Positions 3,873 to 20,181 of a stretch of DNA of 64,000 bases are shown in pieces (the stretch's first letter is position 1; each line of letters opens with the position of its first letter). The notes below the pieces were generated by a model, which saw only the letters and a list, made by a program, of their open reading frames with translations, ran no database searches and was not told the origin of the DNA. The DNA comes from Bryobacteraceae bacterium (GTDB lineage: Bacteria > Acidobacteriota > Terriglobia > Bryobacterales > Bryobacteraceae), in assembly GCA_019752335.1 (NCBI GenBank), contig JAIEMJ010000013.1, positions 62,001 through 126,000 on the forward strand, in the 5' to 3' direction. Both the position numbers and the translations under genes were made by a program.

Positions 3873-4748
3873 TCAACGAATTCCAGCTTTAGAAAGCAAT
3901 GACTCTAGTTCAGATCGGTTGGCCAAAACAATCTGCTGTGCTTCCGGCGTCGTTGTTTCCGGCTGATCCAACCGAAGCTGGCGTAACACATAAAACAATA
4001 AGGCTTCACGGCATTGGAATCTGCAGATCCCTCCGACCATGCCGTAATCAAGCTCAATCGCACGGCGGTGCGGATCAGCCAAGGCAGGGTGAGGAGACAG
4101 CACCACGTTCACCAGATTGTTCCATTGAGAATCTTCAGAGGCACGCGAACGGTCAGCCTCGGTGCCCTCTATCTCCAAAATCCTCGATATCAAGAAATCC
4201 CGGAAGTCCTCACGCGCATGGCAATAGGCGCGGACGTGCCACCGCTGACCGTCATAGACCAAGGCATGCGGGGTAAGTTTTCGCGAAAAGGGCGTCAGTC
4301 TCGATAGAGATTGATAGACCAATCGTAGAGCCCGATTCAAACGGATCGCCTCAACGATGGTTCCGACTGTTCGACCATCCAGATGCCTCCAGGGGGTTTG
4401 CGGGACCGACACCACTGGATGCCACCCCAGGAAACTCTCATCGGTCGATTCGACCGCGTAGGCTTCGCGTAGCAGATCGTTTAGATAGCGTTCGTGATTC
4501 GTGCCTTTGAAAACAGGGTGAAACCCGCTAGCCAAGACATAGGCGCGGGTGCTTCGGTCATAGGCCAGGTTACCCGGTGCACGTCGAGTGTACTCAGCGA
4601 GATCTAGCGACGCTTGGGGAACGGAAATGCCGAAGAAGTCAGTTAGATCACTACGGTTGAGGTGACCTGCCCATCGAAGTCTGTACTCGATGAACTCCAG
4701 CCGCCGATCCTGCCCCCAACGAGCAACCCTCGCAGAAGTCTCTGCCAT
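3873..4748 (-). CDS. capW: WYL-domain repressor of CBASS (CapW/BrxR-type)
   Basis: About 291 residues: an N-terminal winged helix (RWGQDRRLEFIEYRLRW, then LNRSDLTDFFGIS), a WYL-type domain with RWHVRAYCHAREDFRDFLISRI, and a C-terminal extension. This architecture matches CapW/BrxR regulators that repress defence operons and release on ligand or damage cues. It is divergent from the CBASS operon, with an AT-rich repeat region between. The start used begins MAETSARVARW; an in-frame ATG at 4802 would add 18 residues and reach into the operator. Regulator of CBASS by context and homology. Confidence 0.85.
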   Translation of the reverse strand: MAETSARVARWGQDRRLEFIEYRLRWAGHLNRSDLTDFFGISVPQASLDLAEYTRRAPGNLAYDRSTRAYVLASGFHPVFKGTNHERYLNDLLREAYAVESTDESFLGWHPVVSVPQTPWRHLDGRTVGTIVEAIRLNRALRLVYQSLSRLTPFSRKLTPHALVYDGQRWHVRAYCHAREDFRDFLISRILEIEGTEADRSRASEDSQWNNLVNVVLSPHPALADPHRRAIELDYGMVGGICRFQCREALLFYVLRQLRLDQPETTTPEAQQIVLANRSELESLLSKAGIR

Positions 4749-4786
4749 TGATCCAACATCCCCATTGTCGTCCCCTATAATCATGA

Positions 4787-4847
4787 ACTTGCATTGTTGC
4801 ATGCGTCTAAAAACTATGCAAGTATAAAAATTATGCTAATATAAAAA
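4787..4847. promoter_or_regulatory. Candidate CapW operator and divergent promoter
   Basis: An inverted repeat ACTTGCAT (4787-4794) / ATGCAAGT (4816-4823) overlaps two tandem 17-base near-repeats of the form TATGCnAnTATAAAAA (4814-4830 and 4831-4847). The region is much richer in A and T than its surroundings and holds possible -10 elements for the CBASS operon. Binding by the adjacent WYL protein is an inference from position. Confidence 0.6.
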
Positions 4848-4855
4848 CAAGACGT

Positions 4856-6487
4856 ATGATGACCAGCCCTCTGAAAAGCCATGCCCCTTCTTCAATGCCT
4901 CCCCAACTGGCTGCCCCCTTGCATGACGCTGAGCTCGCGGCGGAGCTCAAACGCCACCAGGGCGAAGGCCGCTCACGCTGGCATGTAATCGCAAATGCTT
5001 TTTCGATTCGAGTGTTGTCAACGCTCGTTGAGCAGAATCAGTGGGATGAAGTTGGAATGGGCGACCTTGGCGGCGAGACCCACAACCAGCTCAAGATCGC
5101 CGCCAAAGCAAAACGCCTCAGTTGGGCGAATGTTGATTCAGTCAATCTTGCGGAAGTTTTACTGGATCTGTCGAATCCAACGATGCAGTCAGTTTCTCAG
5201 TTGAACGATTGGGTGAAGCACCGGGACAACGTCACCACGGGGCGTCAGGGCGATATCAGTGATTCGGTGAAGGCGGACGTCTCCTCTCTTGCAGCTTGGC
5301 GTTGTCAATTTGAAGGTTGTGGGGAAAATCTCCGCACGCATGTCCTACCCGGAATTCGCGGCAATTTCTCTTACTACGCCCACATCGTCGCATCCTCTCC
5401 GGAGGGTCCACGCGGCGACAAGGTCTTGTCTCCGCAACTCGCCAAAGATCCGACGAACATTCTTCTTCTGTGCGACAAATGCCATCGCACCATTGATCGT
5501 GTTGCTCCGCACCTTTACTCGCGGGACAGGCTCCAAGAGATGCGCGCGCGAAATCTAACCAATGTCGAGCGTTGCCTCGATTCACTGCGCTATCCTGCGG
5601 CGCGCATCCTTGTTCTGGGAGGTAATGTCCAAGGCCAGACCGCCGCGTTCGACGAGACCCTCGCGCAGGAAGCCATGTGGCTTCGAAAACTCCGTAGTGA
5701 CTACACTCGGCCAGATTGGTTTGCAAGAAACGCCGGCCACCTCGGCGATACGCACTCGTCCGCCTTCTGGTCTAGCCTATTTGCGCTGCTAAAGAAGGAC
5801 GTCCCCCGTCTGCAAGCGATCCTAGAAGGCACTGCGCAAGATTCCGTTCAAGGCATGCCACTGGCCGTTTTCCCGGCACCGCACACAACCTCGGTTCTTA
5901 TTCTGTCAGGCCGACTTCTCGGGGAGTCACGATCCATTCACTTGTTTCAATTTCATCGTGACCAAGTCGGTGGCACGTTAGGCGGCCAGTGGGCTTGGCT
6001 TGGAGAGCCGCCAGCCAAAGAAAAATACAAGGTCAAGGTGTTGCGTCCTCCCCAGCCTGGGGAAAGCGAGGCAACCTTGCTGGTCTATCTCACCGACTCC
6101 ATCCCCCCCGAGGAATTGCCCTCAAACCTGTACGAGAACAACCAATGGGCTTGCCCCACCATCGAAGTCAGCGTTGAATTCCCCAGTCGCCGAATCATCG
6201 CTCACCCCGAAGATTTGGAACTGTTCGGGCTGGCCATTGATGACGCGCTCCAGAAGTTGCAGGACCAATGGCGTGCCTCGAAAGTTCACCTACTGGTGAT
6301 CGCGCCGATTACCGCATGCGTGCGGATTGGCCAAAAGATGCAGGCACGTTGCCAGCCCGGCTTTATTCTCTACGAACGGGATACGTCTACCGGCACAGCG
6401 GGGCGTGGCGCATTCGTTTCCACCATCGCAATCACGTCCAAAGCAGTAACCCATCTTAAAACGGAGGAAACCTGCCCACTTTGTTAG
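4856..6487 (+). CDS. cap5: CBASS effector: HNH nuclease fused to SAVED domain (Cap5)
   Basis: The 543-residue effector would degrade DNA when its SAVED domain binds a cyclic nucleotide made by the neighbouring CD-NTase. The nuclease part is a Cys-supported HNH: C150 and C155, the catalytic His region YYAHIVA (H176), then CDKCH (206-210). The C-terminal half (about 255-543) has the SAVED pattern, including HLLVIAPITACVRIGQKM near the end. The N-terminal 130 residues are an extra helical region, so the protein is longer than a minimal Cap5. It is the first gene of the CBASS operon, 15 bases before the CD-NTase. Confidence 0.88.
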   Translation: MMTSPLKSHAPSSMPPQLAAPLHDAELAAELKRHQGEGRSRWHVIANAFSIRVLSTLVEQNQWDEVGMGDLGGETHNQLKIAAKAKRLSWANVDSVNLAEVLLDLSNPTMQSVSQLNDWVKHRDNVTTGRQGDISDSVKADVSSLAAWRCQFEGCGENLRTHVLPGIRGNFSYYAHIVASSPEGPRGDKVLSPQLAKDPTNILLLCDKCHRTIDRVAPHLYSRDRLQEMRARNLTNVERCLDSLRYPAARILVLGGNVQGQTAAFDETLAQEAMWLRKLRSDYTRPDWFARNAGHLGDTHSSAFWSSLFALLKKDVPRLQAILEGTAQDSVQGMPLAVFPAPHTTSVLILSGRLLGESRSIHLFQFHRDQVGGTLGGQWAWLGEPPAKEKYKVKVLRPPQPGESEATLLVYLTDSIPPEELPSNLYENNQWACPTIEVSVEFPSRRIIAHPEDLELFGLAIDDALQKLQDQWRASKVHLLVIAPITACVRIGQKMQARCQPGFILYERDTSTGTAGRGAFVSTIAITSKAVTHLKTEETCPLC

Positions 6488-6502
6488 GGCAGGCTTAGGA
6501 TT

Positions 6503-7732
6503 ATGATCAACAACAAGACTTTTTCAAAGCGCATTAAGGAATCGCTCGACCTTACAAAATCAGCTGGTCGATGGGAGCAGCTTATGGTGACGCTGTTGCG
6601 TCGTTTGGAACTCGATCCCGCCGCTCGCAAAGACGCGGAGAAGGAGTACAAGGCTCTTGCCGAGCGGGTAGCTGACCGCCTTGACCTTCCGCACCACTCG
6701 GTCGACGTTATTCCACAGGGCTCGATGCGAACTCAAACCACGATCCGTCCACCCGGCCGAACGAATTTCGACTTAGATGTCGTCTTTGTTCTATCGGGGC
6801 CGCGCTATGAGAATCCGGACCCCGAGTTGTTTTTCGAAGAGTTCGGCAAAGCACTCGACGGAGATGAGGCAACTACTGGGTCACCTACACGAAAGAATCG
6901 TTGCTGGCGTCTCCCCTTTCCTAACAAGCCATACTACTTCGACGTAACGCCCGCCACCCCCGACCCCGATCATGTTTATGGTGCTGCGTTGCGAGTTCGC
7001 GATCCGGAAACCGCCTGGAGTCCTTCGAATCCAACTGAATTCGCGCAGTGGTTCTGCGACCGCGCGGATCTTCAGTTTTCCTTCCAGTCGGCATCGGGCT
7101 TGGGAAATCTGATCGAAGCCCGCAAAAGCGTAGAACCGTTGCCCAGCGATCCGGTCCGGATCGACGACATTTTGCGCCGCACAATCCAGTTGGTCAAACT
7201 GCATCGCGACAACGTGTATTTCTACGAGAGCGACAAGCGAAAGGAAGCGTGGCCAATCTCGGTCATCATCGTCACATTGGCAGGCCAAGCCTTCGAGAAT
7301 ATTTGGGCTACTCGCCGCAACTCGTTCAGCTCTCCCATGGAAGTCGTACTTGCTGTGATCGAGGACATGCCGAATTGGATCACCCGGAATGCGAACGGAC
7401 ACTATCTCGTCTGCAACCCCGCACTCGGCAGCGAAAATTTCGCAGAGCGATGGAATACCGATCAAGGCCTTCGTGCATCGGAATTCTTCCGCTGGTACCA
7501 ACGCTTGGAGAACGACATCGAAGCGTTGCTGACCGACGAATACTCCAAGAGCAGTGAGAACAAATTGAAGGCCATCTTCGGCCAGGTCGGCGTGGATGCC
7601 TGGATGGCTAGCCTACCTGAGAACAAACAGATGGCACCCTTGCTCAAGGGCTTGGTCGCATCTTCTGGTATTGAGGTCAGCAACCCAAGAGTCGCAACGC
7701 CGGTAGGCCGAAACACACGAACGCTGGCTTAA
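6503..7732 (+). CDS. cdnD: CBASS CD-NTase (cyclic oligonucleotide synthase)
   Basis: A 409-residue cGAS/DncV-like nucleotidyltransferase that would make a cyclic di- or trinucleotide on phage infection. The nucleotidyltransferase core is complete: QGS at residues 72-74, the metal-binding D90-L-D92 in TNFDLDVVFVL, and the third acidic residue D147 in YYFDVTPA. The SAVED-type effector next to it suggests a clade A or D enzyme; the symbol cdnD is tentative. An AGGA sits just upstream of the ATG. The C-terminal tail is the expected substrate of Cap2 conjugation. Confidence 0.88.
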   Translation: MINNKTFSKRIKESLDLTKSAGRWEQLMVTLLRRLELDPAARKDAEKEYKALAERVADRLDLPHHSVDVIPQGSMRTQTTIRPPGRTNFDLDVVFVLSGPRYENPDPELFFEEFGKALDGDEATTGSPTRKNRCWRLPFPNKPYYFDVTPATPDPDHVYGAALRVRDPETAWSPSNPTEFAQWFCDRADLQFSFQSASGLGNLIEARKSVEPLPSDPVRIDDILRRTIQLVKLHRDNVYFYESDKRKEAWPISVIIVTLAGQAFENIWATRRNSFSSPMEVVLAVIEDMPNWITRNANGHYLVCNPALGSENFAERWNTDQGLRASEFFRWYQRLENDIEALLTDEYSKSSENKLKAIFGQVGVDAWMASLPENKQMAPLLKGLVASSGIEVSNPRVATPVGRNTRTLA

Positions 7733-7742
7733 GGAGGTGAGC

Positions 7743-9443
7743 GTGCCAAACCCACCCCTCGATCAGGGGGCCATAGAAAAGGTGCGCACCTGGCTCGATA
7801 CATCCGATGTCGTGGCTGCGGTGACCCTGAGCGTCGCACAACGCGAAAAGTCTGTTGCGGCCTGGGAGTTGAAGGAGAAGTACGAGCACCTTGGCCCGAT
7901 ACAACCGAGGATTCTCCTTCCACGGGATTTCCCGTTCAGCCCCCTGCGTGTAGAACTGGACCAATCGTGTTGCCTACGCCTGCCCCACGTTGAAGCGAGT
8001 GGCAATTTTTGCCACGGTGTGTTGACGCTGCCCGACGACCTTGCTGATCCAGTAAAGGCGGCGGGGCGAGTCCTTGAACAGTTCCTAGCCTATATCCCGA
8101 ACTCCGCCGAACCAGAATGGATCGAACAGGAATTCCACCGCGAGGCACACGATTACTGGCTACGACATGTCGATGCCTTCCATCACCCCAAGGGTTGCAA
8201 AACCGAAGAATTGCTCTTAGAGATCGATGCTGATCTGCATGCTCCGCAGCGCGTTGAAACGCTTCACCTAGGAAGCCGCACGCGAGCCATAGCCTCCTCG
8301 CGCGATGGCGGCCCTAAAGCCACTGCGGAGAATACGGGGTGGTCGCTAGGAACGATCGTGTACGGCAGCACACTCGTCTTGCGCCTTCCCAGCGACCAAC
8401 GATGGACGCCGAACACTTGGCCCAGGTCTTTTGAGACTATTGCGGCTCTAGCCGACGAATTAACGGGCACAACCGACGGAGTGAAGTCCTGGTATGCTTC
8501 CCGCCAATGGTCCAACGATGCGCCACTCTTCATCGTCGCCTTACAGAATTCGGTCGGATTCGGATGGCGCGTAATCCCTTCTAGGTCGCGCGCATCAGCG
8601 CAGCCCACCGTTGTCCCGGTCAAAGTAACTCGCATCGACCGCCGGTGGACTTTGGCAAGAGATCATCGCACCCAACAACTAGACGGACTGACAGGCAAGC
8701 GGGTGGTGGTGTTTGGGTGCGGATCAGTCGGCGCACCCGTTGCTGAACTTCTCGCTCGCGCGGGCGTCGGCTCGATCGACATTGTAGACCCAGACGTTAT
8801 GAAGACGGAGAACATATCGCGCCATCCACTTGGACTTCCAGCGAACGGTCGCCACAAGGCAACTGCATTTTGTGAGCGTCTGAAAAGCAGCACTCCCGGC
8901 GTTAAGACCGCCGCGCATACGATGACAGCGCAGGCATGGCTGGCTGGGGACCATCCTATTCCCGATCTCATTGTTGATTGCACCGGTGACAGGGCCGTGA
9001 GGATGGCGATTTTTCATGCGCGTCCTACTATGTTTGGGCTCGTGTCAACTATCATGGCTTGGATGGAGCCATTCGGCGCAGCCGCACACGTCATAACCGT
9101 TGTTGGCGACGACCGTTGGCCGACTTCCGATCCTGCCGAAACGGCGATCCAAATTGGAGATTGGCCTGACGAAGTGGAAGTATTGCATCCAGGATGCGGG
9201 CAGGGTTTCCATCCGTATGGAATGTCCGACGCTTGGGAAGCGGCTGCTATGGCGGCTCGCCGTGGCCTAGCCCTGCTACGTGGAGAAAATACTACTTCAG
9301 ACGTTCTGTCCTTGGTCCAATCTCGCGAATACTTCGAGCGGGTCTGGCCCGGCATTACTTTTCGTCGTCAACTTGCCATCCCTGCTGGCATTACGTCGGT
9401 CGTGGAGCGACGGACCCTTGCTGAGGCGCTGCATGGATTCTGA
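7743..9443 (+). CDS. cap2: CBASS Cap2: E2-E1 fusion conjugating enzyme
   Basis: Activates the CD-NTase by ubiquitin-like conjugation of its C-terminus. The N-terminal E2-like part carries the candidate catalytic Cys90 (GNFCHG). The C-terminal ThiF/E1-like part has an adenylation nucleotide loop VVVFGCGSVGAP around residues 320-331 and a candidate E1 Cys485 (HPGCGQGF). GTG at 7743 was chosen because AAGGAGG ends five bases before it; another GTG at 7737 overlaps that site. It overlaps cap3 by 11 bases. Together with cap3 it makes this a type II (long) CBASS. Confidence 0.88.
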   Translation: MPNPPLDQGAIEKVRTWLDTSDVVAAVTLSVAQREKSVAAWELKEKYEHLGPIQPRILLPRDFPFSPLRVELDQSCCLRLPHVEASGNFCHGVLTLPDDLADPVKAAGRVLEQFLAYIPNSAEPEWIEQEFHREAHDYWLRHVDAFHHPKGCKTEELLLEIDADLHAPQRVETLHLGSRTRAIASSRDGGPKATAENTGWSLGTIVYGSTLVLRLPSDQRWTPNTWPRSFETIAALADELTGTTDGVKSWYASRQWSNDAPLFIVALQNSVGFGWRVIPSRSRASAQPTVVPVKVTRIDRRWTLARDHRTQQLDGLTGKRVVVFGCGSVGAPVAELLARAGVGSIDIVDPDVMKTENISRHPLGLPANGRHKATAFCERLKSSTPGVKTAAHTMTAQAWLAGDHPIPDLIVDCTGDRAVRMAIFHARPTMFGLVSTIMAWMEPFGAAAHVITVVGDDRWPTSDPAETAIQIGDWPDEVEVLHPGCGQGFHPYGMSDAWEAAAMAARRGLALLRGENTTSDVLSLVQSREYFERVWPGITFRRQLAIPAGITSVVERRTLAEALHGF

Positions 9444-9915
9444 AACGCGACCGCAGTTCATTATTCCCGGAGCAACGTGGAGCCTCCGTTTCTCAAGCGA
9501 GGCAGTTGCACTTATGAACAGCCACCGCCAGAAAAAGTGGCGTCAGCCTGAAACCGTCGGGCAGCTATTTAGCCCAGATCTCACCAGTCCAACCGTTCAT
9601 ATCTCAGAAGCCAGTGTTCTGACCCGCGTTAGAGCATCGCGAACCTCGGTTACCTTCGATCCAGACGAAGCCGTGGAACAAAGAAACTCCAAACTAGGGG
9701 AGGGGCTTCACTGTATCGGCCTTTGGCACACTCATCCTGAAGCCGCGCCGCGGCCATCGGGCACAGACGAACGCCTCGCCGCCGACCATGCGGGAGCGGC
9801 TGCCTCAATCCTAAACGGCCTCTGTTTCGTTATCGTCGGAACCGGCACGTCTTCTGAAAACTGGTACGTCGGCATCCATGACGGAAAGATGTTTCACGCA
9901 ACTCGACCGGCCTAG
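9433..9915 (+). CDS. cap3: CBASS Cap3: JAMM-family deconjugating protease
   Basis: A 160-residue JAB/MPN metalloprotease with the zinc motif HTHPEAAPRPSGTD (HxH, then S and D at JAMM spacing). Cap3 removes conjugates made by Cap2 and so resets CD-NTase activity. The start ATG overlaps the end of cap2, the usual arrangement. A Glu upstream (HISEASVL) may be the JAMM catalytic Glu. It closes the CBASS operon. Confidence 0.87.
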   Translation: MDSETRPQFIIPGATWSLRFSSEAVALMNSHRQKKWRQPETVGQLFSPDLTSPTVHISEASVLTRVRASRTSVTFDPDEAVEQRNSKLGEGLHCIGLWHTHPEAAPRPSGTDERLAADHAGAAASILNGLCFVIVGTGTSSENWYVGIHDGKMFHATRPA

Positions 9916-10295: not shown

Positions 10296-11537
10296 ATGAC
10301 AGATAGCCACGAAATCATGGGCGGTAAGGTCCTGGTGTACCGCCGTGAACGGAGTGGTTACTGGCAATGCTCGACGTACCTGAATGGGAGACGATGGCGT
10401 ACCTCGACCCGCGAGGATAGCCTATTGTTGGCCAAGGAGTTTGCCGAAGACTGGTTCATCACGCTCAAGGGCAAGAGCCGAGCGGGCGAGCTCAAGTCCG
10501 GCAAGATGTTCAAGGAGGCCGCAGAGCAATTCCTGAGGGAGTACGAAGTCATCACCCACGGCGAGCGCAATCCGCGCTACGTCGAGGGGCACGGCCACAG
10601 GCTGGGCCTGCACCTCCTTCCATACTTTGGCAACATGATCGTCACCGAAATCACGCCGGGCGTCGTTCAGGAATACCGTGTCCACCGAATGACCTCCCGG
10701 CTACACCCCAAAACCGGCGAGCCAGTGAAGCCGTCACGCAGTACGCTCCACCATGAGATAGTTACACTCCGACTAGTCCTAAAGACCGCAAACCGCCACG
10801 GCTGGTTGCCCCACGTTCCAGACCTTACTGCGCCCTACCGCTCATCCAACAAAATCGAACATCGCGCATGGTTCTCCCCTGAAGAATACAAGCGCCTCTA
10901 CGAGGCGACTCGCGCCCGCTCGAAGCGCCCCGGCATTGCTGCGTGGCAAAACCGCGCCGCAGCGCATCTACACGACTATGTCCTCTTTATGGCCAACACT
11001 GGACTCCGCCCAGACGAGGCCGCTCGCTTAGAATTTCGAGATGTTGCCATCGTCAAGGACGAAGCAACCGGCGAACGTATCCTGGAAATCGAAGTGCGCG
11101 GTAAGCGCGGCGTCGGCTTCTGCAAGAGTATGCCCGGCGCGGTGTTGCCATTCAAACGAATTCAAGAAAGGATTGGCGGTGAAACGACGGCCCGATTGTT
11201 CGCAAAGGTGCAACGCAAGATGTTCACCACCATCCTGAATGAACTTGATCTCAAAAAGGACAGGGACGGCAACGCCAGAACGGCCTACAGCCTTCGCCAC
11301 ACTTACATCTGCTTCCGCCTCTTGGAAGGTGCTGATATCTACCAAGTTGCGAAGAACTGCCGCACGAGTGTTGAGATGATCGAAAAGCACTACGCCGTGC
11401 ATCTCAAAAACACACTGGACGCCGCCGCGATCAATGTGCGAAAGCGGAAGAAGGAAGCAAAGCCGAGGGCCGCTTCAGCAGAGCAAACAAAACCGACAAA
11501 GCAGCGCCCCCCAAAAGTGCTCAAGGAGCCGGTTTAG
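10296..11537 (+). CDS. Tyrosine recombinase/integrase (second integrase of the island)
   Basis: A 413-residue phage-type integrase. It has an N-terminal core-binding region and a C-terminal catalytic domain with NTGLRPDEAARL (Arg I), YSLRHTYI (HxxR-region Arg), and a nucleophile candidate in EKHYAVH. The start ATG follows CACGAGG. The stop codon lies inside a tRNA-Leu 3' remnant (11533-11586), an arrangement typical of integrases whose attP overlaps the end of int. It is unlike the integrase at 35723 in length and sequence and probably served a different element. Confidence 0.85.
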   Translation: MTDSHEIMGGKVLVYRRERSGYWQCSTYLNGRRWRTSTREDSLLLAKEFAEDWFITLKGKSRAGELKSGKMFKEAAEQFLREYEVITHGERNPRYVEGHGHRLGLHLLPYFGNMIVTEITPGVVQEYRVHRMTSRLHPKTGEPVKPSRSTLHHEIVTLRLVLKTANRHGWLPHVPDLTAPYRSSNKIEHRAWFSPEEYKRLYEATRARSKRPGIAAWQNRAAAHLHDYVLFMANTGLRPDEAARLEFRDVAIVKDEATGERILEIEVRGKRGVGFCKSMPGAVLPFKRIQERIGGETTARLFAKVQRKMFTTILNELDLKKDRDGNARTAYSLRHTYICFRLLEGADIYQVAKNCRTSVEMIEKHYAVHLKNTLDAAAINVRKRKKEAKPRAASAEQTKPTKQRPPKVLKEPV

Positions 11538-11586
11538 AAATCCGGTTTCGCAAGGACTGTCGGTTCGATTCCGACCACCCGCACCA
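11533..11586 (+). pseudogene. tRNA-Leu(UAG)-like 3' remnant overlapping integrase end
   Basis: The sequence runs from an anticodon loop TTTAGAA through 3' stem ATCCG, a class II variable arm similar to the tRNA-Leu at 2233, a T arm GTCGG TTCGATT CCGAC, acceptor strand CACCCGC, discriminator A and CCA. Discriminator A and the variable arm favour Leu over Ser. The 5' half is replaced by integrase coding sequence, so it is an attachment-site copy, not a gene. The isoacceptor call is tentative. Confidence 0.75.
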
Positions 11587-11894
11587 TCTTCCCTGACGAA
11601 TCCACCCGCAACCCGCCGTGGATTTCCTACACCGGTTGCAAGAGCCGAGCGCGTTGGTGCAGGCCGCCTGGGGGCGGCATTTCAAGCGATGCTTATGGGC
11701 GCATGCTGGGCTGGAATGCTTGTGGCGGGCATGCCGCTGTTATACGGGCACACCTCCGTATTGACAACCCCAAAGGCCCGGAGGAGGATGCCATACACCG
11801 AAGACCGTGACGTCGCGCCGCATCGTCGTTATTGCGTTCTTTCGTTATTCTGCTATAACCTAGACAGAACATGCAGCGAAAGGGTGCGACAGCC
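11587..11894. promoter_or_regulatory. Intergenic region with a candidate promoter at 11832-11859
   Basis: No gene is supported here. A possible promoter has TTGCGT at 11832-11837 and TATAAC at 11854-11859, 16 bases apart, pointing to the ribbon-helix-helix gene. The segment just after the tRNA remnant looks like ordinary host-type flank and may be what lies next to an old insertion site. Confidence 0.4.
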
Positions 11895-12122
11895 ATGCCC
11901 AAGTCACCGTCCCGAAGGAAGGCCGTAAAGGCCGATACCCCGCCGTCCGTCATCTCTCTGCCCACACTTGAGAAGGGCGGCGCAGCGGAGCTGACCCCGA
12001 TGAACTTCCGCGTACCAGAAACCTTCCACCGCGAGTTCAAGCTCTACGCCGTCCAGCACGGCATGAGCATGGTGGATCTGTTGCAGGAGTCCTTTAGACG
12101 GCTGAAAGCGTCTAAAGCCTAA
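11895..12122 (+). CDS. Ribbon-helix-helix protein (CopG/ParG-like)
   Basis: A 75-residue basic protein with a disordered Lys/Arg N-terminus and a C-terminal segment MNFRVPETFHREFKLYAV followed by SMVDLLQESFRRLK, the beta strand and two helices expected of a ribbon-helix-helix dimer. Such proteins act as partition centromere-binding proteins or antitoxin/operon repressors. No ParA or toxin gene is adjacent. The start at MPKSPSRRK was chosen because AAAGGG precedes it; an ATG eight codons upstream falls almost at the predicted transcript start. Confidence 0.65.
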   Translation: MPKSPSRRKAVKADTPPSVISLPTLEKGGAAELTPMNFRVPETFHREFKLYAVQHGMSMVDLLQESFRRLKASKA

Positions 12123-12279
12123 ATCGTGCATGAGGTTACCACTCTTGGCCATAACCGACGCTTCATGCCGAAGCCGAGGCACAGGGACCCGGAATCCGGC
12201 CACAAAGACCATTGCAAACTGATGATTATTAAATAAACAGGTATTGTCCCATGCACCCACCACTCACGAGACACACGTA

Positions 12280-13389
12280 ATGCGATCACCCTTGGCCTAC
12301 AACCGTGACTATGCGCTTAACGCGATCTGCCCATATTTCACGATGTTTCCCTTGGAGTACCCGTTACGCGTGATTAAGAAGCATTCGAGTGAAAACCCAG
12401 TCATCGTAGATCCGTTCTGTGGGCGAGGTACAACCATCTATGCAGCAAGGAAGCTTGGGCTCCGATCGTATGGGTTCGACACTTCGCCAATTGCAGTGGC
12501 AATTGCAAAGGCGAAACTCGCAAGCGCATCAGTCGAGAGAGTGATTGCACTCGCGGAGCACCTGCTTCAACGGCAGCCATCCGATTTGCCGGACACAGAA
12601 TTTTTCAAAGCCGCCTATTCAAGCGACACACTGCTCGATATATGTCGGCTCAGAGAGGGGCTAATGCTCTTGCCCGACGAATCGGACGAGTCTACCCTGC
12701 TACGGGCCGCGGCGCTAGGATGTTTACATGGTCCGTTGGCGAATGACGTGTCACTCTCTGGCTACTTTTCGAATCAGATGCCCCGTACATTTGCGTCCAA
12801 GCCCGATTACTCTGTTCGATATTGGAAGCAGAATGGTTTGGAAGCTCCCCATGTACAGGTGCTCGCTGTGCTTCGTCGCAAGTTGGAGAGAATTTCGGAG
12901 CTTGGCTCCACGGCGGTCGGTAGCTTTCGCCGGATCATGTGCGCAGATGCTCGCACGGCGGCACCATACAGAAACCTAACAGGACGTTTCGTCGTCGTCA
13001 CTTCGCCCCCTTACTACGGTATGCGGACCTATGTTCAGGACCAATGGCTGCGCAACTGGTTTCTTGGCGGCCCCGCGCAGGTGCATTATGAGACGGACAT
13101 GCAACTCAGGCACTCTAGCCACGAGTGCTTCGTGCATGACCTCGCTCGCGTCTGGAGTCATCTGCGGAAGCGCGCCGAGGCAATCGACCTATATGTTAGG
13201 CTCGGAACCATCCCCTCAGTAAAAAGTGACGCGCGCGCCTTACTCAAAGCGTCGCTAGATGAGTCCTCTGGTTGGCGGCTTGTATCAACTCGACGTGCGG
13301 ACACTGCTAGCGCAGGTAAACGTCAAGCAGACCAAATGGGGAAATCCACGCCAGAGGACGAATTCGATTTCCACGCCGTTGCCAACTAA
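12280..13389 (+). CDS. DNA methyltransferase (amino-type, TSPPY)
   Basis: About 369 residues with a SAM-binding motif VDPFCGRGTT near the N-terminus and a catalytic motif TSPPYYGMRTY near residue 245, so it should methylate an exocyclic amino group (N4-cytosine or N6-adenine). The motif order is SAM site first. The start at MRSPLAYNRDY is preferred; a TTG 12 codons upstream lacks a ribosome site. It is convergent with, and overlaps by four bases, the large nuclease-helicase gene, a restriction-modification-like pairing. Sequence specificity unknown. Confidence 0.8.
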   Translation: MRSPLAYNRDYALNAICPYFTMFPLEYPLRVIKKHSSENPVIVDPFCGRGTTIYAARKLGLRSYGFDTSPIAVAIAKAKLASASVERVIALAEHLLQRQPSDLPDTEFFKAAYSSDTLLDICRLREGLMLLPDESDESTLLRAAALGCLHGPLANDVSLSGYFSNQMPRTFASKPDYSVRYWKQNGLEAPHVQVLAVLRRKLERISELGSTAVGSFRRIMCADARTAAPYRNLTGRFVVVTSPPYYGMRTYVQDQWLRNWFLGGPAQVHYETDMQLRHSSHECFVHDLARVWSHLRKRAEAIDLYVRLGTIPSVKSDARALLKASLDESSGWRLVSTRRADTASAGKRQADQMGKSTPEDEFDFHAVAN

Positions 13390-16300
13390 TGCCACCTAAC
13401 TTCGGCTTCACGACTCACACCATTGAAGGAGATTGTCGTCGATGTCCGATTCGCGCAGAACTCCTCCACGTATGACTTGATCGCAACCGACGCGTCTGCT
13501 GCTTTTGGATCGGTTGGTAGGTGATACGCCAACGCTTTTGGCATGATGACTATGCACTTTGCCATCGCGCGAGAAATGGCAACGTTTGTGCGCTCCATTT
13601 GAAGTAGAAATGCCTCTTCTCCCTCAATGATATCGGTATCCCCTACACCAAACGAGACGATGATCGTGTGACGTTCACCACCCTGAAACCGTTCTACCGT
13701 ATCCACGGCATCATACACCTTCTGCGGATCGGCATTCGGAAAGATGCCCAGAAGGGCGCGCACTACCAAGGCCTTCTGGGCCTTATGGGGCGTGACTATT
13801 CCGATTCCAACTTCAAAGAAAAAGTCGTCATCGAACGCGGAGCGCTTCTCGGGGACGCCCATATCCAATTCTCTAGCCATGCATTTCCGGACACAGTATG
13901 CTAGTCCTGCAACCAGACCAGCTTCAACGTCATTTGCCTGCGACGAGATTGCGTCGTCATGAATGAGCGTAGCTACGCGCCTTCCTGGATCTAACAGCAG
14001 CTTGTATGCATCCGTTACTGGCAATCCACTCGGAAGCGTTGCGACCACTGGCCCAATCGACTTCAGTTCGGCGACCTGTTTGATGGGGCTGTGCGCAGTC
14101 AACTTTTCTGGATACTTGAGGGTCTTCGCAAACTCGACGATGTCCTGGTTGGACCGATAGTTCACAAGCAGTTCCTGGCGCTTGATCCCAAACCGCTTTA
14201 GAAGATAGGTTTGAATGCTTGACACCAAGTGCTCTGCGTTTGTTGGAGGATCGAGACTATGAATCGGCGGCATCTGTAAATGATCACCAGCGATCACCAA
14301 TTGGCCGTGTTTTCTTAAGCCGGACATGGGACGAAGCGCTAAAGTCACGGGGATCTGGGAGCTTTCGTCGAGCACCACTAGGTCAAATATCTCGGCGACA
14401 AACGAGCCACTTGCCCCCAGCATCTCTATGACCCGGTTGACCATGTGAGCAGTCGTCGCGATGACCGTTGTGTTAGAGCCGCCGTTTACCCCCTGAACCA
14501 TCTCTTGGGCCTCGGGGGCGTCAATTCTAAACGACTTCAGATTTACGTGGCCCTTAACCGATGGCGGATTCTTCGGATCGCGAGTCTTTGAATACACCCA
14601 ATAGAAATCGCAATTTGCCTTCAAATCACCATTTAGATTGACCGCCAAGCGGCCAGCGAGTTCTTCAACGGTCCGGTAGTTAGGTCCCGTCAAAAGTATT
14701 ACTCGCTGCTTCCGTTCCCGCACAACCGCATGCAAAAACGCCACCAACGTATCGGTCTTTCCTGTGCCTGGAGGACCCCACACGATGGAGAGCTGAGATT
14801 CCGCTACCCCTGCGACTGCGTCAGCTTGACTGTAATTCAGCTCGTACCTATTAGCCGTCTTTGCGAACGACACGATAGCCTTCACTTCTGAGGGCGTGCG
14901 GAGCTTTGTGGCGCTCACCTTGTCCGCAGCCCATAGGATTCGTGCGACGGGGGTGTCGGCGTCAGATCCAGCCGGAAGTTTTTTGGCCGCCGACTTACCC
15001 ATCGCATCCAGCGCCTCGGGTGCTGTTCGCGCGCATGCGGGATTTCCGATTGCTCTTAGGATACGTTGAGTAGCGTCAGTGTCGTCGTAGGGAAGCCCCT
15101 CAAGGATATAGATCGGGGCCGCCCCAATTGGCACGACACCCGAGTCCATCACTTCTCGAAAAATATCAGCTACCTTGGAGTGCCTCGGTCGTAGGGTGAT
15201 GATTGCAGTCCGATTTGCTCGGTCAAAACTATCAATCTTCGCGGCTATGATGCTGTGCATGGGCATATAGTAGCCGTGCAAGCTGGAATTAATGTTGAGG
15301 GACAGGCTGCTAGCTGATTCAAGCGGGAATCCCGATATGCTGGCAATGCCAACGGTGCAATACGCGTCGCCTTCCTCAATCTTAGCTTCCGTCGATTCCT
15401 CGTTGACAAAAAATGTGTAGGTGTGGTTGCCGTGATCGGTGATTAGCGAATCGAGCACGATAGCTTTGTAAGACGACTCCAGCCACTCGGCGGGCGCAAT
15501 CAATGCCGTTCGACCCTCTGTGTCAGCCGCAGCAGCAGATACCACGGACCACTGACTCCAAAGCTTGGAGTCCTGCGCGACACCTGTCATCCCGGAGGGA
15601 AAGGATAATTGCAGGACCGGTGCTTTACCGGAGAGAGAACCCCGGAGATCCGAGCGAAGCCTTGCCGTGATCGAACCCAATGCCCAAGCGTGGGCCTTAA
15701 GCACAGAACCATAGCGCTCGATGGCTTCGGTGATGCTGACGACTTTTCCGTATAATTTGACCGTTCCAGTTGGCGATTTCCAGATGTCAAATATTCGCTC
15801 TCGTGGGATCGCATTGCCCAGTGGTTCCACGTAGTATTTGTCGATCTTGCGTGGAGTCAGACTCGCGTGATGGTAGTGCTCAACAGTGCCGAGGAGAGTC
15901 ATCGCAAAACGCTCCGGCAACAAGACCGAACTGTGGATCAGATCACGGATGAACACGATGCTCGGGCAAATTTCATCTTCCTTTTCCATTAGCTGTTCGG
16001 ATGGGAAGATCCATGCTAGAGCTCGCTGCGATCTGCCCGATAGATCCAATACCTTGAGCAAGTGCCTACCAAATGCATTGCACAACTCCTCGTACTGTCG
16101 CGGCTCCCAAAAGCACACCTGTGTATGAACTCTCGTCCCCCACCCTTTATCAGCGTACGTCTTTTCAGCGTTGTTTACCCACGTGGCGAGGGTATCCACG
16201 AAGCTCTGGAGCGCAGTCCATTCGGCTGCGGCGTTATCCTTTGGGACTACAAAGGCCGCTTCCCCCAGCACCATTAAGGATTTAGGCGGTTGTCCGGCTT

Positions 16301-17645
16301 CGGCAAAGGATCTTCCATAAGGCGCAGACAGGACCCCGCGCAGAGCGATTCCCGTAAGAAAACCAGAACCTGAGTCAAAATTCACGATGACTTCGTACTC
16401 GGCACTCCATTGCTTTGCGAGACCGCCGAGTTTCACGCTTTGATTGACAGTTACTAGGTTATTGACGAGGGCGTCAGCTCGCGCTCCTATTTGGATACGA
16501 TCCTTCTTTAGCAGCGTATGCTTCTTTAGAGCAGCCGCACCTGATGCAATTCCCACGATACCGGTGACTGTCGAATGTCCTTCAAGGTTCAATACCTTTG
16601 CAGCGCCCTTGCTAAGGGAGCCCATCTTGCAGAGGTGGTCATCAGTTTCAGCACTTTGAAAGCAGTAATGACTCGGGTTCGCAGTGAAGATTGCAAGGTC
16701 ATCGGTAGAAAGCCAACTCTTGTTGCCAAGCCAATCGCAGGAACCACATCTCTGGTTTACGTGGTATTCAACCGCCTGCCAACCCTCTTTGTCACCCTTC
16801 TCAACCACCCGCGGCACGTCTTCCACGAAAAACTTACGCACGCTTGGCATATACACCAAGTAGTTAACCAGTCCTTCCCTCAGGTCCTGAAGTAACGCCT
16901 CTATGCGCTTTTCATGATCGCCGCCTGCTACCGTACCAAGGATCTTTGTGAACCGAGGCATCTCGACATGCCGCCACAGGTAAACCTGATCCGAGACGAA
17001 AAAGCCTTGGGCTATATCCGTCTTCTGGGTCTGAAGCCAGTTGGCCAAGAAGAACGCATAGAGACAGACCTCGGCAGAATAGCTCGCGTTTGCTTCAGTT
17101 ATGTTCTTTAAGTCAATGATGCTTAGTGGCCGTCGAGGGTCGTTCTCCTTCAATCGTCTCCGGTTGCCATTCGGCAGCACTTCGAATTCAGCGGACCCGG
17201 CATCGCCAATGTAAATCACGTCAGGCCTCAATCCCGCAAGTTCAGGGATGAAGGTCACTCGTGCTTTGGGCACTCCTATGTTGGTAAACGCGAGGTCACG
17301 AAAGCTCTGGGGTTCAATTCCCGGCTGGAGCAAGAAGCTTGAAATGTTTGCGGACCTTAAGGCGGCGGCAAGTTCGAGCGGCGCCCGCCCGTTGCTCTTA
17401 TGGAGGACGCGTCCGGGAAGCGCATTGATCAGCGCGTCGAATTGCCCATATTCGAACTCGGTACCGGCGCTCGTGATGAGCTGAACTCCAGGTCTTGATT
17501 TCAGAGGGATTGGAATGCCAGCCGCTTTAAGGCTCGGTACATTGTTCGAAAACAACGACAGGTAAAGCTCTCGGTCGCACTTGGTGCGCAGGTACATCGA
17601 GAACTTGCTCTTGCCAAGCTGCCGTTGGGGGGTGCCTTTGGACAT
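13386..17645 (-). CDS. Large PD-(D/E)XK nuclease - SF1 helicase fusion protein
   Basis: A 1419-residue protein. The N-terminal part has a RecB/Cas4-like nuclease signature: RPDVIYI, then SIIDLKN (about residue 177) and YSAEVCLYA. A Cys group (CGSCDW near residue 302, then CFQS and HLC near 330) could hold an iron-sulfur cluster. The C-terminal third is a Dna2/Upf1-type helicase with GPPGTGKT near residue 960, LDESSQ near 1088 and RTNVAISRA near the end. ATG at 17645 follows AAGGAG. It is convergent with the methyltransferase and visibly AT-richer than the host genes. Likely a defence enzyme; not matched to a named system with certainty. Confidence 0.8.
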   Translation of the reverse strand: MSKGTPQRQLGKSKFSMYLRTKCDRELYLSLFSNNVPSLKAAGIPIPLKSRPGVQLITSAGTEFEYGQFDALINALPGRVLHKSNGRAPLELAAALRSANISSFLLQPGIEPQSFRDLAFTNIGVPKARVTFIPELAGLRPDVIYIGDAGSAEFEVLPNGNRRRLKENDPRRPLSIIDLKNITEANASYSAEVCLYAFFLANWLQTQKTDIAQGFFVSDQVYLWRHVEMPRFTKILGTVAGGDHEKRIEALLQDLREGLVNYLVYMPSVRKFFVEDVPRVVEKGDKEGWQAVEYHVNQRCGSCDWLGNKSWLSTDDLAIFTANPSHYCFQSAETDDHLCKMGSLSKGAAKVLNLEGHSTVTGIVGIASGAAALKKHTLLKKDRIQIGARADALVNNLVTVNQSVKLGGLAKQWSAEYEVIVNFDSGSGFLTGIALRGVLSAPYGRSFAEAGQPPKSLMVLGEAAFVVPKDNAAAEWTALQSFVDTLATWVNNAEKTYADKGWGTRVHTQVCFWEPRQYEELCNAFGRHLLKVLDLSGRSQRALAWIFPSEQLMEKEDEICPSIVFIRDLIHSSVLLPERFAMTLLGTVEHYHHASLTPRKIDKYYVEPLGNAIPRERIFDIWKSPTGTVKLYGKVVSITEAIERYGSVLKAHAWALGSITARLRSDLRGSLSGKAPVLQLSFPSGMTGVAQDSKLWSQWSVVSAAAADTEGRTALIAPAEWLESSYKAIVLDSLITDHGNHTYTFFVNEESTEAKIEEGDAYCTVGIASISGFPLESASSLSLNINSSLHGYYMPMHSIIAAKIDSFDRANRTAIITLRPRHSKVADIFREVMDSGVVPIGAAPIYILEGLPYDDTDATQRILRAIGNPACARTAPEALDAMGKSAAKKLPAGSDADTPVARILWAADKVSATKLRTPSEVKAIVSFAKTANRYELNYSQADAVAGVAESQLSIVWGPPGTGKTDTLVAFLHAVVRERKQRVILLTGPNYRTVEELAGRLAVNLNGDLKANCDFYWVYSKTRDPKNPPSVKGHVNLKSFRIDAPEAQEMVQGVNGGSNTTVIATTAHMVNRVIEMLGASGSFVAEIFDLVVLDESSQIPVTLALRPMSGLRKHGQLVIAGDHLQMPPIHSLDPPTNAEHLVSSIQTYLLKRFGIKRQELLVNYRSNQDIVEFAKTLKYPEKLTAHSPIKQVAELKSIGPVVATLPSGLPVTDAYKLLLDPGRRVATLIHDDAISSQANDVEAGLVAGLAYCVRKCMARELDMGVPEKRSAFDDDFFFEVGIGIVTPHKAQKALVVRALLGIFPNADPQKVYDAVDTVERFQGGERHTIIVSFGVGDTDIIEGEEAFLLQMERTNVAISRAMAKCIVIMPKALAYHLPTDPKAADASVAIKSYVEEFCANRTSTTISFNGVSREAEVRWH

Positions 17646-17854
17646 TAATCTCCTTACGCTCACGCATGGCGTTCGCCGTTACTCCGAATGTCCTTATTAT
17701 AGGCCGCTTGTGTCAAAGAGGAAGGACCTTCGCACTTGGTGTGACAATCCGTTCATCCCATGCACCATCGATCCCCACATCCTCTGCTTCCAAACGAGCC
17801 ACTTCAACAGACTCATGGCGGCGATGCAGTCACCGGAATAACGAGTCGGGGGTG

Positions 17855-18490
17855 CTACTTCTCCTCGGCCTCCCAAACGGCGGCGTCAACCGTGACTTCG
17901 GTGGCCTCGTCGTCCCAATTCACCAGCAGCAGGACATATCGCCCTTCTTCGGGTGCCACAAAAGCGTACTCACCTTCCATAACGCCGGTGCGTGACCAGT
18001 AGCAGTCCGGCAGGGGGCTCTCCTCGTCGTGTTCTGCTTCCGACCACTCGTCGATGTCGTCCTCATCACAGATGACGACGTCGAGGAAGTCGTTTGCGTC
18101 GAGCGAGAACACGAGTTCGTCACCCTCGTCCATGTCGAACGGGTACTCTTCGTTCTCACTACCTTCGATGAGTTTCGTCTCGTGAATCTCTTCGACGGGC
18201 GATTCAATTTCCTCAGCGCCTACTTCGGCGCAACGTTTCTCCCACGCCCTCTTATAGGCAAGCACTTCGCCCTTCGCGTATCGGCTCCCGAGACTACTCT
18301 TTGCGGTGACGAGCCCGTGGCAGTTTCGGCAAAGCACGGCCAAGTTCTCCCACACGTTGTTGCTGGGGTCTTCGTCGATGTGATGCTTCTCCACGGGGTG
18401 GCGCGGCTCGTGGCAGATGCAGCACGTATGCCGGTTCGCCACCATTAGGCGATCCTTCAATTTGCGAGGGATTGGGCGTCGATCTCTCAA
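17855..18490 (-). CDS. HNH endonuclease with acidic C-terminal domain
   Basis: A 211-residue protein. The N-terminal 70 residues form an HNH zinc nuclease: CCICHEPRHPVEKHHIDED and NLAVLCRNCHGLV. The remainder is very acidic and ends in a beta-rich stretch (EGEYAFVAPEEGRYVLLLVNW) that looks like a small ligand- or protein-binding sandwich; this part is not recognised. The start is a TTG giving MRDRRPIPRKLKDRL, the usual beginning for this HNH type; ATG at 18445 would clip the first helix. It lies upstream of the nuclease-helicase in the same orientation and may be part of that module. Confidence 0.75.
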   Translation of the reverse strand: MRDRRPIPRKLKDRLMVANRHTCCICHEPRHPVEKHHIDEDPSNNVWENLAVLCRNCHGLVTAKSSLGSRYAKGEVLAYKRAWEKRCAEVGAEEIESPVEEIHETKLIEGSENEEYPFDMDEGDELVFSLDANDFLDVVICDEDDIDEWSEAEHDEESPLPDCYWSRTGVMEGEYAFVAPEEGRYVLLLVNWDDEATEVTVDAAVWEAEEK

Positions 18491-19135: not shown

Positions 19136-20044
19136 ATGCAAAACACCGAACGGCAAGACGTTTACACCCGCATCACCGGACAGATCATCAGCGCACTCGA
19201 ACAGGGCGTCCGCCCCTGGATGAAACCCTGGAGCGCCGACAACACGGCAGGCCGAATCACTCGTCCCCTGCGCCACAACGGCCAAGCTTACTCCGGCATC
19301 AACATCCTGATGCTGTGGAGCGCTGCCATCGAGCAGGGCTACAACGCGCCGATCTGGATGACCTTTAAACAGGCGGTTGAACTGAACGCGCATGTCAAGA
19401 AAGGCGAGAAGGGCTCACTCGTCGTCTACGCGAACAAGATCACCAAAACCGAAGACGACGGCAAAGGCAACGAAGTCGAACGCGACATCCCGTTCATGAA
19501 AGGCTACACGGTCTTCAATGTCGAGCAGATCGAAGGTTTGCCTGAGATCTACTACACGAAGCCGACGCCGCGACGCGAGGGCCCCGCCCGCATCGAACAC
19601 GCCGAGGCGTTCTTCACCCAGACCGGTGCTGACATCCGCATCCGTGGCAACCGCGCCTACTACGCCATTGATGCCAACTACATCGCCATGCCGCCCATCG
19701 AGAGCTTCACGACCGCCGAAAGCTACTACGCGACACTGGCGCACGAAAGCACGCACTGGACGCGGCACGCCACCCGCCTGGAGCGTGATTTCGGGCGCAA
19801 GACCTGGGGCGACGAAGGCTACGCCCGCGAAGAACTCGTGGCCGAACTGGGTTCCGCGTTTCTCTGCTGCGATCTGGAACTCACGCCGGAAGTGCGCGAC
19901 GACCACGCCTCCTACATCGCCTCGTGGCTCGAAGTTCTGAAGAACGACAAGCGCGCCATCTTCCAGGCCGCATCCCACGCGCAACGCGCCGTGGATTTCC
20001 TGCACAAGTTGCAAGCGCCGAGAGAGGAGGCCGAAGCCGCCTGA
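19136..20044 (+). CDS. ardC: ArdC-like antirestriction protein
   Basis: A 302-residue protein with an N-terminal ssDNA-binding domain (RITGQIISALEQG, WMKPW, YSGINILMLW) and a C-terminal zincin-type domain with HESTH (203-207) and a downstream acidic segment EELVAELGSAF. ArdC proteins enter or act with conjugating DNA and shield it from host restriction. AGGAG lies just before the start. This fits a mobilizable element. No partner gene is needed. Confidence 0.88.
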   Translation: MQNTERQDVYTRITGQIISALEQGVRPWMKPWSADNTAGRITRPLRHNGQAYSGINILMLWSAAIEQGYNAPIWMTFKQAVELNAHVKKGEKGSLVVYANKITKTEDDGKGNEVERDIPFMKGYTVFNVEQIEGLPEIYYTKPTPRREGPARIEHAEAFFTQTGADIRIRGNRAYYAIDANYIAMPPIESFTTAESYYATLAHESTHWTRHATRLERDFGRKTWGDEGYAREELVAELGSAFLCCDLELTPEVRDDHASYIASWLEVLKNDKRAIFQAASHAQRAVDFLHKLQAPREEAEAA

Positions 20045-20181
20045 GGGCGGTTTACACGAAATCCTCTCGTAGGCGAGGCGCGCCGCGTAGCCTAATGCGA
20101 TTAGTTGCTGCCCGCTGACGCTTCCAGCCCAATGGTACAGGCTCTTTGTTGATCGGCAGGCAGATTGGGGTACGGCACAAA

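Follow-up and report, generated by a model that had tools for sequence, protein, structure and literature searches.

A convergent methyltransferase and nuclease-helicase gene pair as a candidate restriction-modification-like defence system

In a 64,000-nt stretch of a Bryobacteraceae bacterium genome (assembly GCA_019752335.1, contig JAIEMJ010000013.1, positions 62,001 to 126,000; hereafter, the window), a gene for an amino-methyltransferase (MTase) meets, tail to tail, a gene for a 1419-residue nuclease-helicase (NH). We propose that the two form a two-gene restriction-modification (RM)-like defence system with a TM0106-like nuclease-helicase as its restriction part, a reading to which we give a probability of roughly 0.6. 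The pair is best read as RM with an unusual restriction part because the pairing is near-obligate, the active sites are intact, and the carrying DNA is mobile and rich in defence genes. It travels across distantly related bacteria and their integrated phages and most likely forms a so far uncatalogued defence against foreign DNA. An earlier note, made from the sequence alone, had described a candidate defence pair with RM-like logic, in which the MTase converges by a four-base overlap with a protein joining a RecB/Cas4-like nuclease, a Cys cluster and a Dna2/Upf1-type helicase, all within a defence-rich mobile element. Both genes and their overlap were confirmed (Table 1), and the motor matches, the conserved residues and modest fold comparisons agree with the proposed domains. 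Partner conservation, domain content and neighbourhood support the candidate defence role, which we infer from these three lines.

Table 1. Coordinates of the gene pair and its parts (window numbering unless a locus is named; NH residues refer to the 1419-aa form)
Feature	Position (nt)	Strand	Details
MTase gene	12280..13389	+	369 aa; ATG at 12280 agrees with homologues' starts
Longer MTase open reading frame (ORF)	12244-13389	+	381 aa; TTG start at 12244
NH gene	13386..17645	-	1419 aa; ATG at 17645 agrees with homologues' starts
Longer NH ORF	13386-17663	-	1425 aa; GTG start at 17663
Tail-to-tail stop-codon overlap, MTase/NH	13386..13389		4 nt, CTAA: TAA for one gene, TAG for the other
Cas4/AddB/Dna2-like PD-(D/E)XK nuclease	16644..17612	-	NH residues 12-334
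Helix-hairpin-helix (HhH)-like segment	16452..16643	-	NH residues 335-398
RNase T/TREX-like fold	15975..16418	-	NH residues 410-557
Beta barrel resembling domain 1B of Sen1/Upf1-type helicases	15090..15470	-	NH residues 726-852
SF1B Upf1/Dna2-type motor	13446..14849	-	NH residues 933-1400
MTase motif I, DPFCGRGTT			MTase residues 44-52
MTase motif IV, TSPPYY			MTase residues 241-246
Helical stretch between MTase motifs I and IV			MTase residues about 83-215
NH exchange region	L042 198-5694		Compared with L047; collinear flanks

Linkage of the Two Genes

The NH N-terminus was scanned against species-genome contigs (84,980 species by the collection's description), which gave 23 loci (here designated by L numbers). 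A convergent, abutting MTase accompanies 15 of the 16 full-length NH genes, at spacings of -4 to +13 nt and at NH identities down to about 38%. The other loci are partial: in L022 the NH match runs up to residue 655 with an MTase remnant adjoining, in L025 NH stops at a contig break and the containing genome shows an MTase 20 nt from an NH end, the L034 NH ends with its contig, L035 is a 301-aa fragment, and L037-L039 match over 40-102 residues. The NH search of viral contigs yielded 8 loci, and the MTase is present in all 8; L040 and L041 are identical, L046 is cut by a contig end, and the MTases of L032 and L045 are identical to each other. An RM system calls for a tightly linked nuclease, and one is found at these genome and viral loci in the proportions 15/16 and 8/8, which contradicts the view that the two families lack conserved linkage.

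Traced from the MTase side, viral contigs gave 17 loci. The eight untruncated MTases at 55-60% identity all have a convergent NH, on the same contigs as the NH-first viral loci, and L064 is cut by the contig end. At greater divergence, L058 has a convergent NH (29%) that overlaps the MTase by 19 nt, and L060 has NH (33%) in tandem with the MTase with a 10-nt overlap, a second gene topology. Among plasmids, three records cover at least 80% of NH, and two of them, at 57-59% identity, hold the pair; eight records match the MTase, two of which hold the pair, and four opened plasmid MTase loci show no NH (L013 and L014 by BLAST, L015 and L016 by annotation). Seven MTase matches occur in a 399-genome sample of the window's class, and of the loci fetched for these, none beyond the window's own holds NH. 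Cultured phage records yielded no pair when queried with the proteins of the window and of L027, and the L027 pair had no match in E. coli complete genomes by megablast, the only search applied to them.

Convergent cases overlap by as much as 19 nt or stand up to 20 nt apart, so the exact 4 nt is not constant. The two genes are convergent neighbours in locus after locus, at 29-61% NH identity, and the adjacency is therefore beyond chance. Remote homologues of each gene do occur without the other, as would be expected if MTase and NH were unrelated cargo genes that came to lie together by accident, but this recurrent abutment across phyla, together with two separate associations and an in-place exchange of one NH for another, makes such an accident very improbable. 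When ORFs of the 23 loci were clustered in search of a third conserved gene, NH was found in 23 and the MTase in 19, and the other clusters span at most 4 loci. An RHH-like gene (11871-12122) and an HNH gene (17855-18490) that flank the window pair are not counted among the parts of the system, having no matching cluster.

Co-inheritance and Exchange of NH

Of 43 MTases placed in a tree, 26 are linked to NH and 17 are not; 25 of the NH-linked sequences form a single NH-only clade with support of 100/99. The L060 MTase falls in another clade, together with GmrSD-HEPN-associated, HerA-NurA-associated and unlinked MTases, and because it sits outside the NH-only clade the association needs at least two changes. 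NH-linked rows are over-represented in this tree because many came through NH searches, and the placement of the long-branch rows L015, L016 and L092 is unsure. Distances between NH proteins follow those between their MTases (r = 0.82 for 26 pairs, a value that none of 10,000 permutations reached), which shows general co-inheritance and not interaction.

One prophage-type locus departs from this pattern of parallel divergence. The L042 MTase is 92% identical to that of L047 and 90% to that of L044, and the L044 and L047 NH proteins are 93% identical to each other, but the L042 NH is only 40-41% identical to either. The DNA of L042 and L047 is 90% identical over 146 nt upstream, and 83% identical over a 2.8-kb stretch that begins close to the NH end and runs past the MTase. 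With the MTase near-constant, the flanks collinear and NH at 40%, one NH appears to have been swapped in place for another, and the L042 arrangement might alternatively be an assembly chimera of its 7.3-kb contig. In the prophage clade apart from L042, the MTases are 54-57% and the NH proteins 39-40% identical to those of the window.

Domain Content of NH

The C-terminal motor carries the motifs GPPGTGKT, DESSQ, GDHLQMPP, NYRS and ERTNVAISRA, and its sequence matches Upf1/SMUBP-2/Dna2 and related superfamily 1 (SF1) families. In an alignment of 27 NH proteins, the motor residues K963, D1093, E1094 and R1352 are invariant, as are C23, D142, D178, K180, Y196, C300, C303 and C328 of the nuclease core and its four Cys. 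The alignment omits the fragments L022, L025, L034, L035, L037-L039 and L046, the identical copy L041 and the remote relatives L006, L069, L070 and L071; its numbering (alignment A7), like that of the NH model, is five higher than the numbering used here. The Cas4/AddB/Dna2-type four-Cys nuclease pattern consists of an N-terminal Cys, D/D-x-K and three C-terminal Cys, and all 27 proteins have it. An iron-sulphur cluster is predicted. The IDxK motif of NH aligns with an archaeal RecB-nuclease/helicase in a weak profile comparison, and one further comparison is weaker still.

No Pfam family matched the first ~930 residues of the window NH at E 0.5, the corresponding parts of the other 16 NH proteins gave weak and unrelated Pfam matches (best E 0.011), and a profile of the N-terminus compared with Protein Data Bank (PDB) sequences returned nothing credible, its single row standing at E 0.88. 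VIA comparisons of the N-terminal model rank Dna2 highest (Z 7.7, rmsd 21). By region, a Cas4 chain matches model residues 59-309 at Z 5.9, small helical folds of HhH type match about 339-402, RNase T/TREX matches about 414-562 at Z 5-6, and domain 1B of Sen1 matches 730-856 at Z about 6. We hold the fold reading to be modest because VIA alone gave the Dna2, Cas4, RNase T and Sen1 rows. Most of model residues 70-290, 350-400, 460-510 and 800-850 has block mean confidences of about 70-92. Residues 335-398 we take to be HhH-like. In the RNase T-like domain, D424, the first Asp of what is presumably a DEDD motif, is kept and is the sole Asp retained there; exonuclease activity of this domain is doubtful.

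The Methyltransferase

The MTase ORF matches PF01555 at 4e-13, and among the best 25 of 55 PADLOC families the leading model is a type II MTase (3.3e-13, residues 32-280 of the 381-aa ORF). Motif I precedes motif IV, the opposite of the order in 2zie, the nearest PDB sequence relative, and the helical stretch between them may be the target-recognition part. The catalytic residues and motifs are invariant in 26 of 26 aligned MTases. The MTase model (mean predicted local distance difference test score, pLDDT, 81.4) has a Rossmann fold, and Foldseek and VIA both return many Rossmann methylases. By sequence, then, the S-adenosylmethionine-binding and catalytic motifs of a DNA methyltransferase are intact, as the modification part of an RM system would have them, and a DNA substrate and activity are predicted.

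Comparison with Known Systems

No match of the whole pair to a named system was seen: PADLOC, NCBIfam and Pfam give only generic motor or methylase matches, and we rejected assignment of the pair to a PADLOC or NCBIfam system. The earlier note could not place the pair with certainty in DISARM, BREX (bacteriophage exclusion), Nhi or Hma, and our comparison, on the matches listed, places it in none of the four. Ten ORFs between 4.9 and 20 kb of the window were scanned with PADLOC and Pfam. For DISARM, no Drm model appears in the complete set of 22 PADLOC matches of NH or among the matches listed for the other window ORFs. For BREX, PglZ, BrxC/PglY and PglX are absent among the matches listed for the ten ORFs; PglZ and BrxL turned up in L036 among neighbour proteins scanned elsewhere. 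The Nhi match (E 0.046) is limited to the Walker A region, and HmaB (967-973 positions) aligns over at most 43 residues of the 369-aa MTase.

DpdJ of the Dpd system has a homologous Upf1-type motor and is the best PADLOC match of NH (E 4.5e-34, residues 932-1401 of the 1425-aa ORF), the match being restricted to the motor (442 of 2112 profile positions spanned), and no other Dpd protein is listed among the ten ORFs. MkoA of Mokosh likewise has a homologous Upf1-type motor (PADLOC E 3e-25), and apart from the motor-level matches of NH no Mokosh protein is among the matches listed for these ORFs. Type I and III RM systems combine a methylase with an ATP-driven nuclease, and their HsdR/Res motors belong to superfamily 2 (SF2). 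The motor of our pair, in contrast, is of the SF1B type and comes with a four-Cys nuclease; the pair has no HsdS or Mod/Res, and no REase_I or Res model is among the 22 PADLOC matches of NH. The TM0106 family RecB-like nuclease is usually described as COG2251 with a Upf1-type motor. A member by NCBI product name, L074, shares with NH a CxxC...C-then-HhH segment and the Upf1-type motor in profile comparison; pairwise, the Cys/HhH segment aligns at E 3.9e-6, over 84 N-terminal columns only, and the motor at 8.6e-16. No TM0106 model is among the NCBIfam matches of the window NH, and no MTase is annotated within the 11 kb opened around L074, unlike in the pair.

The closest printed precedent that we found is a Cas4-UvrD fusion, a Cas4-like nuclease joined to an SF1 helicase, often found close to methylases and described as ancillary and linked to type III RM or Dcm (PMC5704561). 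Its motor is of the UvrD type (SF1, 3'-5') whereas that of NH is of the Upf1/SMUBP-2/Dna2 type, which sets NH apart from that group, and the fusions do not form a convergent unit of two genes with an MTase of this kind. Coiled-coil nuclease tandems (CoCoNuTs), McrBC systems of which some have UPF1/DNA2-like helicases, are predicted to target RNA, and their CnuH shares with NH such a helicase in a restriction-type setting (PMC11090510); unlike in CoCoNuTs, neither McrB nor McrC is listed among the ten scanned window ORFs. The DraI system uses a GIY-YIG enzyme and is unrelated to the pair (PMC10855626). UPF1, Cas4, RecB and Dna2 are absent from the main text of the YprA/ARMADA paper (PMC12458937) and from that of a BREX-related survey (PMC12839542). 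No description of an MTase-NH pair was found among the titles and abstracts listed by our searches of an open-licence library.

Other Partners of the MTase Family

The MTase family is also found beside other genes. In three viral contigs (L056, L059 and L062) a GmrSD_N gene and then a HEPN gene come after the MTase, with a second methylase between in L056; of the other viral MTase loci at 42-46% identity that lack NH, L057 ends with its contig and L063 has other genes. In L061 (3636-8091) the MTase lies near a HerA gene that matches DUF87 at 2.8e-20 and a NurA-like gene whose match, at 3.6e-4, is a little below the cut-off. HerA and NurA genes adjoin the MTase in L092 (3854-8461), HerA and NurA-type genes in L015 (8947-15420), and a HerA gene in L086 (2373-6778), where NurA has no Pfam support. 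The MTase family with HerA, with or without NurA, is possibly a further methylase-resection module. A three-gene set, in which the MTase comes after two genes of 359-400 aa and 296-366 aa, is present in L014, L087, L088, L089 and L091 and in part in L090. Where scanned, the partners in this set have no gathering-level Pfam match, and a ParB-like label given to the set by eye has no Pfam support.

On a wider and more tentative reading, which we consider possible and somewhat less probable than its negation, the MTase family would be an interchangeable self-marking module with at least four partner sets (NH, HerA-NurA, GmrSD_N-HEPN and the three-gene set), its partners being exchanged under a constant MTase as in L042. 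The convergent pair would then be the best-conserved member of an undescribed RM class in which a processive, end-resection-type nuclease-helicase replaces the site-cutting enzyme.

Proposed Mechanism and Competing Readings

In the mechanism that we propose for the RM-like reading, the MTase would place an exocyclic-amino methyl mark (N4-cytosine or N6-adenine) on the DNA of the host or of the carrying element. NH, alone or with the MTase as specificity subunit, would recognise incoming DNA that does not carry this mark, load on it, and translocate and unwind it by means of its Upf1/Dna2-type SF1B motor while the Cas4/AddB-like nuclease cuts the strands. The expected outcome would be processive degradation and not one clean cut. 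The helical stretch of the MTase is a natural candidate for the site reader, and the exchange in L042 would fit a reader on the MTase side. DNA as the substrate, site specificity, a protective mark and restriction are all predictions of this scheme.

Several observations weigh against the RM-like reading. The strongest of these are a solitary NH in Nostoc and the tRNA-methylase-like fold of the MTase. The one full-length species-genome NH that has no adjacent MTase, that of Nostoc linckia (L021), is intact and keeps all checked catalytic residues; BLAST and tblastn of 22.8 kb found no MTase there, and the best methylase match in the genome searched is weak (E 5.9e-4). This counts against RM because a restriction enzyme should kill a host that has no protection from it; the objection would fall if the draft is incomplete, if a different MTase provides the protection, or if NH cannot act without the MTase. 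The remote NH relatives L006, L069, L070 and L071 have no such MTase adjoining, mostly on short contigs. The first of them, at 26.5% identity, lies on the AM1 megaplasmid, the third of the plasmid records that cover at least 80% of NH, where the MTase was not found beside it. In the window's order (257 genomes), four genomes match NH at E 1e-20: one is the source of the window, and the other three have remote relatives (24-35% identical where they align) with no such MTase on the contig, L069 showing just a weak 34-residue match. Six of the eight viral MTases at 42-46% identity lack NH. The Dna2 and Cas4 rows came from an AlphaFold model of the N-terminal part of NH that is of low confidence (mean pLDDT 61.5, predicted template-modelling score 0.38), with zero Foldseek matches at E 0.001 and every VIA row below Z 8.

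The solitary Nostoc NH is also what one would expect if defence did not depend on methylation, with NH sensing DNA ends, forks or recombination intermediates of the invader and the MTase modulating it or marking self indirectly, in the manner of BREX or DISARM. The modest resemblance of the NH fold to Dna2 and the MTase relatives that adjoin HerA and NurA resection-type genes point the same way. Set against them is the near-obligate pairing of NH with one MTase clade, which argues that NH relies in some way on the mark or on the MTase protein, and we regard end sensing as unlikely, at about one chance in five.

The top VIA matches of the MTase fold are the tRNA methylases TrmN, Trm11 and Trm14 (Z about 17), and because the best structural matches are of this kind the fold leaves the substrate unsettled, RNA being possible. 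The pair could accordingly be pictured as a Trm-like N-methylase with a Upf1-like RNA helicase-nuclease, given that the NH motor is in the Upf1/Sen1 family and that RNA targeting is predicted for CoCoNuTs, some with UPF1/DNA2-like helicases (PMC11090510). Sequence profiles nevertheless group the MTase with DNA methylases (PF01555 and the PADLOC type II MTase, with UPF0020 at just 0.07), and the NH nuclease is Cas4/Dna2-like, so that action on RNA seems improbable to us.

If the RM-like reading is true, restriction would be possible without a site-cutting enzyme or an SF2 translocase, and one methyl mark could gate a Dna2/Upf1-like motor and a Cas4-like nuclease. Judging by L042, nuclease-helicases that differ widely may serve one and the same MTase, which makes the question of the site reader testable, and the pair consists of just two genes that are found in cultured species and prophages. 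The reading would also name proteins whose homologues are so far annotated as 'AAA domain-containing protein' (NH) and 'DNA methyltransferase' (MTase).

Genomic Surroundings

The window copy lies in what looks, from its gene content, like an integrative and conjugative or integrative and mobilizable element (ICE or IME): positions 2233-33704 hold a tRNA-Leu, an integrase, ArdC, a TrwC relaxase and a TraG/TraD-type protein. The G+C fraction is about 0.54 over the pair vs 0.66 in the first 2 kb of the window. No attachment repeat of at least 18 nt at the tRNA-Leu was found within 1500-26500. A type II CBASS-like operon (4856-9915) encodes an HNH-SAVED effector, a CD-NTase, an E1-E2 protein and a JAB protein, and just upstream of it lie a gene for a DUF4172-Fic protein (2554-3705) and one for a WYL protein (3873-4802). 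A 76-nt sequence occurs in two copies with 80% identity, at 11602-11677 and at 19975-20050, the latter at the ardC 3' end. The RHH gene, the MTase-NH pair, the HNH gene and ardC are enclosed by these copies, an arrangement that suggests cargo exchange at ardC.

Of the 19 loci that have flanking sequence on one side or both, 14, as a raw count, have defence-type neighbours. Those tested by profile within about 6 kb include the type II CBASS of the window, HsdR (L023, L027), GmrSD (L027), PglZ with BrxL (L036), type III or type II/III-like methylases (L019, L031), TmtA (L028) and PtuA (L004). L005, L017, L022, L024, L029 and L032 have defence-type neighbours by homology to these or by record annotation. 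No defence neighbour was seen in L018, L020, L021, L030 and L033, where most neighbours were unscanned.

At seven loci (L026, L027, L029, L031, L032, L036 and L064), matches to phage endolysin, tail, tail-fibre or tail-terminator genes, direct or via one ORF cluster, lie within about 2 kb of the MTase, which makes these copies prophage cargo. The seven loci resemble a defence hotspot of prophages whose cargo on the side of NH is exchangeable, with BREX, HsdR, GmrSD and methylase plus Res-like genes occurring there. That the carriers are plasmids, an ICE-like element and prophages, with the pair near tail and lysis genes in the latter, would also suit a cassette for DNA maintenance or superinfection exclusion that serves the carrier, for example by processing replication or transfer intermediates, and not defence. 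We consider this improbable as well: the neighbours are varied defence genes, and since the carriers differ in kind, no common replication need is evident. In L005, a gene at 11363-12718 is annotated as an anti-phage deoxyguanosine triphosphatase, and homologues adjoin the pair in L017 (15788-17149) and L022 (3256-3945).

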